Origin: Leptolyngbyaceae cyanobacterium clean351
GTDB lineage: Bacteria; Cyanobacteriota; Cyanobacteriia; DAIDHW01
Direction: 5' to 3'
Assembly (NCBI GenBank): GCA_027451865.1
Contig: DAIDHW010000001.1
Coordinates: forward strand, 1,127,329-1,191,328
Length of the DNA: 64,000 nt
Under the pieces are notes generated by a model. That model was not told the DNA's origin. It saw nothing but the letters and a program-made list of their open reading frames with translations, and did no database searches. Shown here one piece after another: positions 31,287-36,496 of this stretch. The position numbers and the translations under genes were made by a program. How positions within the stretch are numbered: the first letter of the stretch is position 1; each line of letters opens with the position of its first letter.

Positions 31287-33848
31287 CTAGCATTCTCCCG
31301 CTACCAGCTCCCCCCCCTGGTTAAACTCCGGCATTTGGTCGAAGTTGAGGTAATGGTACAGTTGCGTCGCTAGGGGGGTGATCCGTTGGCCTACCACCTG
31401 CTGATACTCGGCAGGGGTGGGGATGCGGCCGAGGCGGGCGCACACAGCCGCCAATTCCGCTGAACCGAGATAAACCCGCGCTCCTTGGCCCATGCGGTTA
31501 TTAAAGTTGCGCGTGGAGGTAGAAAACACAGTGGTGTTGTCCGCTACCCGGGCCTGGTTACCCATGCACAGGGAGCACCCCGGCACCTCGGTGCGGGCTC
31601 CCACGGCCCCAAAGACGCTGTAGACTCCTTCGGTCTTTAGTTGCTGCTCATCCATGCGGGTCGGGGGGCAGATCCACAGCCGGCCCTGGACTGCCGGCCC
31701 CCCCTGGAGCACCTGGGCCGCGGCACGGTAATGACCAATATTAGTCATACAGGAGCCAATGAACACCTCCTGGACCGGGTCTCCTGCCACCTCCGAAAGG
31801 GTCTTTACGTTGTCAGGGTCGTTGGGGGCAGCCACAATAGGTTCGCAGATATTATCTAGGTTGATCTCTATAACTGCCTTGTACTGGGCATCCGGGTCCG
31901 GCTGCAGCAGCACTGGGTTAGCCAGCCAGGCTTCCATTTTCTCAATCCGCCGCTGGATGGTCCGCTGGTCCTGGTAACCCTGGGCCACCATGGTCTTGAG
32001 CAAGGCCACGTTCGAGCGCAGGTACTCAGACACTGTCTCTACCCCCAAGTGAATGGTGCACCCGGCGCAGGAGCGCTCCGCCGTAGCATCGGTCAACTCA
32101 AAGGCTTGTTCTACCTTCAGATCTGGCAGCCCTTCAATTTCCATAATCCGGCCGGAAAAGACATTGCGCTTGTTTTCCTTGGCCACAGTCAGGTAGCCCT
32201 GCTGGATAGCCACGTAGGGAATCGCATTGACGATGTCGCGCAGGGTGATCCCGGGCTGGAGACTACCCCGAAAGCGCACTAGCACCGACTCGGGCATGTC
32301 TAGTGGCATCACCCCTAGGGCGGCGGCAAAGGCCACTAGCCCCGACCCGGCCGGGAAGGAAATTCCCAGGGGGAAGCGAGTGTGGGAGTCGCCACCGGTG
32401 CCGACCGTATCTGGCAGGAGCATCCGGTTTAACCAAGAGTGGATGATGCCGTCCCCCGGCCGCAGGGCAATCCCCCCCCGGGAGGCGAAGAAATCCGGCA
32501 GTTCCCGTTGGACCTGGACGTCGGCGGGTTTGGGGTAGGCGGCCGTATGACAAAAGCTCTGGAGCACCAGGTCAGCACTAAAGCCCAGACAGGCTAGCTC
32601 CTTCATCTCATCCCGGGTCATGGGGCCGGTGGTGTCCTGGGAACCGACGGTGGTCATCACCGGTTCGCAGGCGGTGCCTGGGCGTACCCCTGGCAGGCCA
32701 CAGGCCCGACCGACCATCTTCTGGGCGAGGGTGAACCCCCCCTCTCCCTGGGGCGGGCGGGGACGGACAAAGAGGGGACTCGGAGTTTGACCGCGGCTAG
32801 CCCGGACCTTGTCGGTTAGGGCCCGGCCAATGATCAAGGGGATCCGGCCCCCGGCGCGCACCTCATCGAGCAGGGTTGGTGAAGGGAGGCTGAACTGGGA
32901 TACAACTTCCCCGGCTTGGTTTTTGATCAACCCCTGGTAGGGATAAATAGTCACCACCAAGCCGCTTTCCAGGGAGCGCACATCACACTGGATCGGTAAG
33001 GCTCCGGAATCCTGGGCCGTGTTGAAGAAAATCGGCGCGATTGCCCCCCCGAGAATATAACCCCCGGAGCGCTTGTTGGGGACATGGGGGATGTCGGTGC
33101 CAATGTGCCACAGCAGGGAGTTAATCGCTGATTTGCGGGAGGAGCCTGTCCCGACCACATCCCCCACAAAGGCGACCGGGTGACCAAGCTGACGCAGGGC
33201 GGCGATCTGCGCTTGGGCTCCGGGGGCGCGGGTCTCAAGCATAGCTAGGGCGTGTAGGGGAATGTCGGCCCGGGTGGAGGCCTGTTGGGCTGGCGATAGG
33301 TCGTCAGTATTAATTTCCCCAGCTACCTTGAAGATGGTAACGGTAATCGCCTCAGGCACGGGGGGGCGGCTGGTGAACCAGGTAGCCTCAGCCCAAGCCT
33401 CCAGTACCTGGACGGCCCAGGGGTTGGTGGTCGCTAGCTCTGCTATGTCGTGGTAGTTATCAAACACTAGAAGGGTGTGGCTGAGGGCCACCGCAGCCTC
33501 GGGGGCAAGCTCCGGATGACCTAGCAGCTTGACCAGGGCCGGTACGTTGTAGCCGCCGATCATTGTTCCTAGGATCTTCACGGCCCTGGAAGGGCTAATG
33601 AGGGGGCTAGCTAGCTCCCCGAGGGCAAGGGCATTCAGGAAGGTGGCCTTCACGTAAGCAGCCGGGTCAACCCCGGGGGGTACCCGCTGCTCAAGCAGGT
33701 CTAGGAGGAACTCTCCCGGCACCTCCCCGGGGGTCTGCAGCAGTTCTACCACGGCGGCGGTTTGGGGAGCACTCAGGGGGAGGGGGGGAATGCCCAGGGC
33801 AGCGCGCTCAGCTAGGTGGTGGCGGTAGGATTCGAGAATTGAGGACAT
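31287..33848 (-). CDS. acnB: Aconitate hydratase B
   Basis: An 853-residue iron-sulfur enzyme that interconverts citrate and isocitrate, and may dehydrate 2-methylcitrate. The order is that of AcnB: an N-terminal HEAT-like domain, then the swivel domain ([31 protein letters not shown]), then the catalytic core. The Fe-S cysteines are recognisable in [10 protein letters not shown] and [14 protein letters not shown]. Length is typical for cyanobacterial AcnB. gyrB follows closely. Confidence 0.96.
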
Positions 33849-34066: not shown

Positions 34067-35053
34067 ATGCCCAAAATCACCTGTCTCCCGGACCAGCAGA
34101 CCCTAGAAGTCGCCCCCACCGACACTATCCTCCAGTCATTGCTGAAAGCGGATATCCCCCACGCCCACGTCTGCGGTGGCAATGCCTACTGCTCCACTTG
34201 CCGGGTGATGATCCTGCAGGGGATTGAGGAGTGCAGTCCCCCGACTACGGCCGAGCGGACCTTGAACCGGAAACTAGAATTCCCGATCCATGTCCGCCTG
34301 GCCTGTCAGACTAAAGTCCAGGGGGATGTGACCCTGCGGCGGTTAGTTTTAGACAGTGGGGACCTGGATATTGTTGATGCCCAGCTGGCTACGGGGGCTA
34401 CCGGCCAGCAGAAAACCGTCGCCTTGCTGTTTGCCACCCTTAAGGGGGCCGCTGATTTCGATGAGATCAACTTTCCTTACGACTTGATCTATATCCTCGG
34501 GCGCTATTTCCATTGCATGAATCAGGTGATCGAGCGGTACGGGGGAGTAGTACACAACTATATGGGAGTGTGGTTTCTAGCAGTGTTTCAGGATGGGGTC
34601 CAGCCGGCGAGTAGGGCGGTATGGGCCAGTCTGGAGATGCTTGAGGCCCTAGAGGAGCTCAACTCCTCCCTAGAGCGCCTATCCTATCGCCCCCTGAGCC
34701 TAAACCTGGGGGTCCACTACGCCCCTACGGTCCTGGTGCCTGTGGACCCACGCCGGCCGGACCGCCTGACCGTGGTCGGCCAAGCGGTTAGCCAGGTTAG
34801 TCGGGTAGAAGCTGCTAACCGGGAGCTAGGCAGTAAACTGTTGGTTTCCGAGACGGCCTATGGCGAGATTAAAGGCCAGGCAGTGGTCAAAAAAACTCAC
34901 GCTACCCCGGCCTTGGGGGAGTTAGTGGAGGTGGCTGCTATGGAGGGGGAGCCACCTGAGATAGTCACAGCAGGGCCTCCCGCCATGCCTCTAAAAGACC
35001 GTCTCGGAGAGTTTTGGCAGAAGTTTTCTCGCTTCTGGGGCCCTCGTTCCTAA
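34067..35053 (+). CDS. 2Fe-2S ferredoxin fused to a degenerate adenylate-cyclase domain
   Basis: A 328-residue two-domain protein. Residues 1-95 are a ferredoxin: Cys36, Cys42, Cys45 and Cys80 give the CX5CX2CX34C pattern of a 2Fe-2S cluster. Residues 115-290 resemble a class III nucleotide cyclase (LLFATLKGAADF, YGGVVHNYMGVWFLAVF, LSLNLGVHYAP, VVGQAVSQVSRVEAANRE). Both metal-binding Asp positions are changed: Thr124 in place of the first, and Val168 where GD is expected. The domain is therefore probably a non-catalytic sensor or binding module. Similar fusions occur in other cyanobacteria. An isolated gene with its own promoter. Confidence 0.85.
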   Translation: MPKITCLPDQQTLEVAPTDTILQSLLKADIPHAHVCGGNAYCSTCRVMILQGIEECSPPTTAERTLNRKLEFPIHVRLACQTKVQGDVTLRRLVLDSGDLDIVDAQLATGATGQQKTVALLFATLKGAADFDEINFPYDLIYILGRYFHCMNQVIERYGGVVHNYMGVWFLAVFQDGVQPASRAVWASLEMLEALEELNSSLERLSYRPLSLNLGVHYAPTVLVPVDPRRPDRLTVVGQAVSQVSRVEAANRELGSKLLVSETAYGEIKGQAVVKKTHATPALGELVEVAAMEGEPPEIVTAGPPAMPLKDRLGEFWQKFSRFWGPRS

Positions 35054-35173: not shown

Positions 35174-36496
35174 GTGAAAGACTCTGCACCCCTTGCCACC
35201 CCGGCCATCACTACTACGGGCAATTCTCAGGTCCTCAACATCTGGGGTGGCTTTCCCCTGGCTGGTGAAGTGCGCATCAGTGGGGCCAAAAACTCAGCCT
35301 TGGTGGTGATGGCCGGGGCCCTCCTCGGCGCCCAAGCCTGCCGGATCCATAACGTGCCCCACCTGGCCGATGTCCGCAAGATGGTGGAGATTTTGTTGTC
35401 CTTGGGGGTGAAGGTGGGCCATTCCGCGGGCGGTGTCTTGGACGTCGATGCCCGTGACCTCCAAGGGGCTAGCCCCTCCTACGGCCTGGTTAGTCAAATG
35501 CGGGCCAGCTTCTTTATCCTGGGGCCCCTGTTGGCCCGTCTGGGGGAAACCTGGGTGCCGCTCCCGGGGGGCTGTGACATCGGGGCGCGACCGGTGGAAT
35601 TACACGTGCGTGGACTCCAGGCTATGGGGGCGGAGGTGGAGATTGACCACGGCATTGTCCATGCCTGGGTGAAAAACCGCCGCCTGCAGGGGACTCGCAT
35701 ATACCTGGACTATCCCAGTGTCGGGGCCACGGAAACTCTGATGATGGCGGCGGTACTGGCCGAGGGAGAAACCATTATCGAGAATGCAGCCCAAGAACCC
35801 GAGGTGGAGGACCTGGCAAACTTTTGCCGCAGCCTGGGAGCCAAAATCCGTGGTGCCGGTACCAACACCATCATTATTGTCGGGGTCCAAGACCTCCACG
35901 GGGCCGAATACAGCATTATCCCCGACCGGGTGGAGGCGGGAACTTTTCTGGTAGCTGGTGCCATTACCCACTCCTCCATTAGTGTTTTTCCCGCTGTCCC
36001 CGAGCATCTAACGGCAGTCACTGCCAAGCTCCAGGGGTTAGGCTTCGACCTAGTCAGCGACTATCCGCGGCAGCTGCGGATCCTCTCTCCCCTGGTCTAT
36101 CCCGGTACAGACATCGAGACGATGCCCTATCCGGGGTTTCCCACCGATATGCAAGCCCAGTTCATGTCTCTATTGAGTCTGAGCAGCGGCGATAGCGTGG
36201 TTACAGAAACGGTGTTTGAAAATCGCCTCCGCCACGTGGCAGAACTAAACCGTCTGGGAGCAGATATCCGGGCGAAGGGAAACCACGCCATCATCCGGGG
36301 TGTACCCCACCTGTCTGGGGCCCCCGTCATGGCCACAGACCTGCGGGCTTCCGCCGCCCTAGTGTTAGCTGGCCTGGCTGCCCAGGGCCAAACCACAATC
36401 CGGGGGTTGCACCACTTAGACCGGGGCTACGAGAGTCTGGAGGTTAAGCTCCAAGCTCTCGGGGCTAAGGTAGAGCGGACTTACCAGCCCGACTAG
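35174..36496 (+). CDS. murA: UDP-N-acetylglucosamine 1-carboxyvinyltransferase
   Basis: A 440-residue enzyme that transfers enolpyruvate from PEP to UDP-GlcNAc at the first committed step of peptidoglycan synthesis; it is the fosfomycin target. [16 protein letters not shown] opens the fold. [15 protein letters not shown] contains the Cys that fosfomycin modifies. [33 protein letters not shown] marks the second half. Translation starts with GTG at 35174. It is transcribed alone, tail to tail with the E2 gene and only 10 bases from it. Confidence 0.96.

Follow-up and report, generated by a model that had tools for sequence, protein, structure and literature searches.

To our knowledge, class III cyclase domains without catalytic function have been recognised chiefly within heterodimers, as one of the two halves. 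Asymmetric cyclase heterodimers in fungi and mammals are described in the available part of PMC12264004, and the accessible passages of PMC4821796 place a ferredoxin between the membrane anchor and the catalytic domain of proteobacterial class IIIb cyclases. A ferredoxin fused to a cyclase domain lacking the metal-binding aspartates was not found in titles and abstract openings of the open literature, and the accessible passages of PMC4284462, PMC4821796, PMC12264004, PMC4886424, PMC2447327, PMC4284465 and PMC10117731 contain nothing on such a fusion.

Here we analysed a protein of this composition encoded in a 64,000-nucleotide stretch of cyanobacterial DNA (the window). Its reading frame is open, starts with ATG and comprises the following domains:

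34067..35053, + strand: candidate ferredoxin-pseudocyclase gene, 328 amino acids (open reading frame, Pfam Fer2 and Guanylate_cyc, member of a 29-protein clade)
34085..34321, + strand: [2Fe-2S] ferredoxin domain Fer2, residues 7-85 (Pfam E 4.1e-11; ligands in 54/54 fused homologues)
34355..34393, + strand: linker helix between the two domains, residues 97-109 (DSSP on the predicted model)
34397..34957, + strand: class III cyclase fold, model residues 111-297 (Pfam 114-269; 2w01_A Z 24.1)

The Fer2 match scores 43.1 bits, above the curated Pfam cut-off, and the Guanylate_cyc match (residues 114-269, E 6e-8) reaches 32.9 bits compared to a curated cut-off of 21.9. A predicted model of the protein, built with 53 sequences (mean pLDDT 88.8, pTM 0.80), shows the ferredoxin domain followed by the linker helix 97-109, the cyclase domain, a poorly predicted stretch and a C-terminal helix comprising residues 309-321. 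The class III fold is credible because the cyclase part of this model matches the structure of Cya2 (2w01_A) with Z 24.1, an rmsd of 2.4 and 24% identity over 184 aligned residues, in line with the Pfam score. The ferredoxin part matches ferredoxin 1i7h and the adrenodoxin homologue 2mjd.

Fused homologues were found as 54 proteins in 52 of 388 genomes of the same class at E <= 1e-30, scoring at most five candidates per genome, and weaker fused forms may be missed at this threshold. All relatives listed belong to the same class as the source genome. Asp occupies both metal-binding columns in 25 of these proteins (D/D) and neither column in 29 (lost), while exactly one Asp occurs in none. When 386 genomes were drawn anew from the whole phylum, 17 had a match, and only four new proteins were added, all D/D. 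In a single-protein search of genome contigs there were three matches, each confined to the ferredoxin part.

The ferredoxin half of the window protein carries all four cysteines expected to bind the cluster, with the spacing CX5CX2CX34C:

34172..34174, + strand: Cys36, cluster ligand (Cys in 54/54 fused homologues)
34190..34192, + strand: Cys42, cluster ligand (Cys in 54/54 fused homologues)
34199..34201, + strand: Cys45, cluster ligand (Cys in 54/54 fused homologues)
34304..34306, + strand: Cys80, cluster ligand (Cys in 54/54 fused homologues)

Their invariance bears out the original prediction that these ligands are intact, and we infer that a [2Fe-2S] cluster is still bound in this domain. 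Two further cysteines are not among the expected ligands: Cys56 (34232-34234), a fifth cysteine shared by every one of the 54 cyanobacterial fused proteins, and Cys6 (34082-34084), which occurs in 26 of the 29 lost proteins and in no D/D protein.

The cyclase half is altered at the positions that we take to be catalytic (metal-binding Asp, phosphate-loop Phe, transition-state Asn and Arg), named after the class III literature. The positions concerned, together with two residues that are characteristic of the lost proteins, are:

34436..34438, + strand: Thr124 at the first metal-Asp position (Asp in 25/25 D/D proteins; Thr, Ser, Gly, Ala, Arg, Asn or Lys in the 29 lost proteins)
34568..34570, + strand: Val168 at the second metal-Asp position (Asp in 25/25 D/D proteins; 12 residue types in the 29 lost proteins)
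34790..34804, + strand: Ser242 to Arg246, transition-state Asn lost and Arg kept (Asn and Arg in 25/25 D/D proteins)
34460..34462, + strand: Asp132, an invariant specific to the lost clade (29/29; Ser or Ala in 25/25 D/D proteins)
34685..34687, + strand: Tyr207, an invariant specific to the lost clade (29/29; at most 10% of D/D proteins)

The window protein thus has neither of the two metal-binding aspartates of an active class III cyclase. That Thr124 and Val168 replace them had been proposed from the window sequence, and the alignment agrees: besides the D/D proteins, Asp stands in both columns in 18/18 unfused cyanobacterial cyclases and in 4/4 fused relatives from other phyla. The transition-state pair is incomplete as well, with Ser242 in place of Asn and Arg246 retained; both residues are kept jointly in 12 of the 29 lost proteins, the window protein not being one of them. 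The phosphate-loop Phe, found in 25/25 D/D proteins, is missing from all 29 lost proteins, and the base-recognition and transition-state positions vary among them. The Lys/Glu expected for base recognition, in the column of residue 164 of the window protein, is replaced by Asn, Val or Ile in all 25 D/D ferredoxin-cyclases including L061 (347 amino acids).

Cyclic nucleotide could still be made if other residues had taken over metal binding, and Asp132, located eight residues after Thr124, would be a candidate given its invariance in the lost clade. However, the two Asp columns have drifted to 7 and 12 kinds of residue, respectively, the phosphate-loop Phe is gone throughout, no other acidic residue takes the metal positions in the alignment, and acids within three positions of the metal-Asp sites occur in only 3 of the 29 lost proteins, none of them conserved. 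Together with the relaxed conservation of the active site described below, this makes a replaced metal site very improbable.

To compare constraint on the active site with that on the remaining fold we used 28 active-site columns, chosen by us around the known catalytic positions. Over these columns the mean pairwise identity is 0.42 in the lost proteins compared to 0.90 in the D/D group, while over the rest of the cyclase domain it is 0.45 and 0.58, respectively. Since the active-site identity of the lost clade (0.42) lies no higher than that of the rest of its domain (0.45), the active site has ceased to be under any special constraint. Nucleotide binding by lost-clade proteins looks unlikely, because the phosphate-loop Phe is absent, the positions for base recognition and the transition state are variable, and conservation in the active-site columns is no longer elevated.

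The fold itself has been kept. Across the lost clade, Pfam recognizes Fer2 in 29/29 and Guanylate_cyc in 26/29 proteins. The dN/dS of the cyclase domain lies between 0.03 and 0.23 in all lost pairs for which it was computable (40 of 41), using a simple Nei-Gojobori count that is near saturation for distant pairs and groups that we chose ourselves. On this estimate the cyclase fold of the lost clade is under purifying selection, which argues for a ferredoxin-pseudocyclase module and against a decaying gene. A gene in decay might be suspected from the greater divergence of the cyclase domain compared to the D/D group, but the lost-clade homologues have full-length open frames and have acquired new invariant residues, and together with the low dN/dS this leaves decay with next to no credibility. 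Besides Asp132 and Tyr207, Phe136 is present in 29/29 lost proteins and in at most 10% of D/D proteins, and Leu25 in 28 of the 29 lost proteins.

A more serious alternative is that the ferredoxin alone works, as an electron carrier, and that the cyclase fold serves as a dimerising or stabilising scaffold without any switching. Within the lost clade the ferredoxin has a mean pairwise identity of 62% compared to 45% for the cyclase domain, and it is the more conserved of the two domains in 405 of 406 lost pairs but in only 98 of 300 D/D pairs; the vanished active-site constraint points in the same direction. On the other hand, a dN/dS far below 1 in the cyclase domain, the residues Asp132, Phe136 and Tyr207 and the motif on helix 1 seem more than a bare scaffold needs. 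We consider this alternative rather unlikely, although it deserves to be kept in mind.

The helix-1 motif is typical of ferredoxin-fused cyclases:

34475..34510, + strand: helix-1 motif PYDxxYxxxRYF, residues 137-148, here PYDLIYILGRYF

It is found on helix 1 of fused proteins, catalytic and non-catalytic alike. Arg146 is present in 62/62 fused proteins (29 lost, 29 D/D and 4 from other phyla) compared to 1/18 unfused cyclases, Asp139 in 62/62 compared to 5/18, and Tyr138 in 60/62 compared to 0/18. Judged from this distribution, helix 1 is likely where the cyclase fold touches the ferredoxin or is coupled to it. Alternatively, the motif may mark common descent and not an interface.

The alignment with cyanobacterial homologues shows that the loss is conserved across a clade of 29 proteins; it is not peculiar to one genome. 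In an unrooted tree of all 54 proteins a single branch with an SH-aLRT support of 100 separates the D/D from the lost proteins. Rooting with 18 unfused cyclases (rows: 18/29 lost, 25/25 D/D and 18 unfused proteins, L024 being dropped as belonging to the same match class as L023) places the 18 included lost proteins in one clade with a support of 100/99, and the 43 fused rows likewise form one clade apart from the unfused cyclases (100/99), as expected for a ferredoxin-fused lineage. The three longest end branches of this tree belong to the lost-clade rows L074, L004 and L050, and their placement inside the lost clade is unsure for this reason. With four fused outgroup proteins from Rhizobium, Sinorhizobium and Hymenobacter, added to 47 of the 54 homologues, 24 of the 29 lost proteins form one clade (100/98). 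L059, which is very close to L061, was omitted from alignments A1 and A3, and one thinned sample comprised 19 lost and 22 D/D proteins.

All 22 outgroup cyclases, i.e. the 18 unfused and the 4 fused proteins from other phyla, are D/D. The history is most simply explained by one ancient loss of both aspartates, early in cyanobacterial evolution, because the 29 lost proteins form one clade and both aspartates are present in the fused proteins from other phyla. A topology in which the D/D group is the sister and not the source of the lost clade is allowed (p-AU 0.115), and one loss is the simplest history either way.

The genomic surroundings are less informative. In the window the gene is flanked by genes for aconitase B (31287-33848) and an EPSP-synthase-family, murA-like protein (35174-36496), an arrangement that is not common to the 35 related loci compared. 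Clustering of the open reading frames around the window gene and these 35 loci gave no recurrent neighbour family beyond close relatives, and a scan for a promoter or terminator of the ferredoxin-pseudocyclase gene gave nothing convincing. Since neighbours are not conserved across families, gene context does not suggest a pathway. Two PsaA_PsaB genes, located at and just before the start of the window, mark the genome as belonging to an oxygenic phototroph.

We considered whether the window protein might be a half-cyclase with a regulatory role, joining an active class III cyclase as its partner, by analogy to C2 of animal adenylyl cyclase, and adds redox control. Asymmetric class III heterodimers are established according to the available part of PMC12264004, 12 of the 29 lost proteins keep the transition-state Asn and Arg together, and the genome of the window encodes one other class III cyclase, of the CHASE2 type and with D/D intact (L111). 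However, the window protein does not retain the pair that a C2-like partner would keep (Ser242/Arg246), and the pair is absent from 17 of the 29 lost proteins. No common partner cyclase is apparent, because the other cyclases, searched for in 16 of the 29 lost-form genomes, differ by lineage, being of the CHASE2 type in the window's genome and of the FHA type in G004 and G067. Pairing with the fused D/D sister is rejected as a general role, since among the homologues retrieved just 2 of the 29 lost-form genomes have both forms (G191 and G318, with one D/D and one lost form each). Overall we regard a half-cyclase as improbable. The FHA-domain class III cyclases, with D/D (L136 in G004, L138 in G067), are the sole PF00211 match found in these two genomes besides the fused protein. 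The converse idea, that no active cyclase is left in the cell, is ruled out by the D/D enzymes of the CHASE2 and FHA types in these three genomes.

On balance we favour, with modest confidence, the reading that the window protein belongs to a conserved kind of ferredoxin-pseudocyclase, in which a scaffold without catalysis is probably coupled to the redox domain, because catalysis has been lost but the redox domain, the fold and the helix specific to the fusion have all been retained. Two points speak against this reading: the cyclase domain diverges faster, as it might if the ferredoxin part alone mattered and as would suit a passive scaffold, and a conserved gene neighbour is lacking. The original prediction was that the fold may be kept as a redox-controlled binding or regulatory module; the retention of the fold without enzyme chemistry in a 29-protein clade under purifying selection supports a module, of which redox control and binding are possible attributes, and the changes in the active site speak against a nucleotide-binding role.

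For the ferredoxin-pseudocyclase, an ancestral fusion of a ferredoxin with a class III cyclase would have lost both metal-binding aspartates, and the non-catalytic form would then have been retained. The pseudocyclase fold may still dimerise, and the oxidation state of the cluster could alter the shape or exposure of the scaffold such that a partner protein is bound or released. Its signal would then be passed on by contact between proteins and not as cAMP or cGMP. Both the redox control and the partners are inferred here. A specific version, in which the ferredoxin reads the electron supply and, by way of helix 1, shifts a catalytically dead cyclase dimer docking on its partner, is possible but tentative. 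If true, a redox-linked second-messenger enzyme of cyanobacteria would have become a protein switch, with the message lost and the sensor kept. The automatic label 'adenylate/guanylate cyclase' overstates the capacity of these cyanobacteria for cAMP or cGMP synthesis, and the D/D and lost sisters, both present in two genomes, offer a natural comparison for the coupling of the ferredoxin to the cyclase fold.

Among known systems, the window protein is close to the soluble D/D ferredoxin-cyclases of cyanobacteria (L061) and those of Hymenobacter and Rhizobium (L120, L119), with which it shares the domain order, the cluster ligands and the helix-1 motif at 34-49% identity over the matches. In contrast to the window protein, those fusions retain both metal-binding aspartates as well as the Asn and Arg. 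L119, encoded on the Rhizobium gallicum plasmid NZ_CP006880.1 (499-1980), carries in addition a C-terminal Rieske [2Fe-2S] domain, so that a single D/D cyclase combines two kinds of iron-sulfur domain. As far as the available parts of the sources show, the membrane class IIIb cyclases (Rhodopseudomonas palustris Q132R4 cluster, Sinorhizobium CyaC; L121) likewise have the ferredoxin directly before the cyclase domain, but they possess a 6TM anchor and intact catalytic Asp, whereas the window protein begins directly at the ferredoxin; L121, judged by eye, has a long N-terminal membrane part. Cya2, a guanylyl cyclase (PDB 2w01), is the closest solved fold but has no ferredoxin. The degenerate heterodimer halves of animal tmAC and NeoR/RGC1 share with the window protein a cyclase fold whose site is non-catalytic and, according to the accessible part of PMC12264004, serves regulation there. 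However, those halves still contribute residues that are essential for a joint active site, whereas the window protein has neither the metal-binding aspartates nor the Asn.
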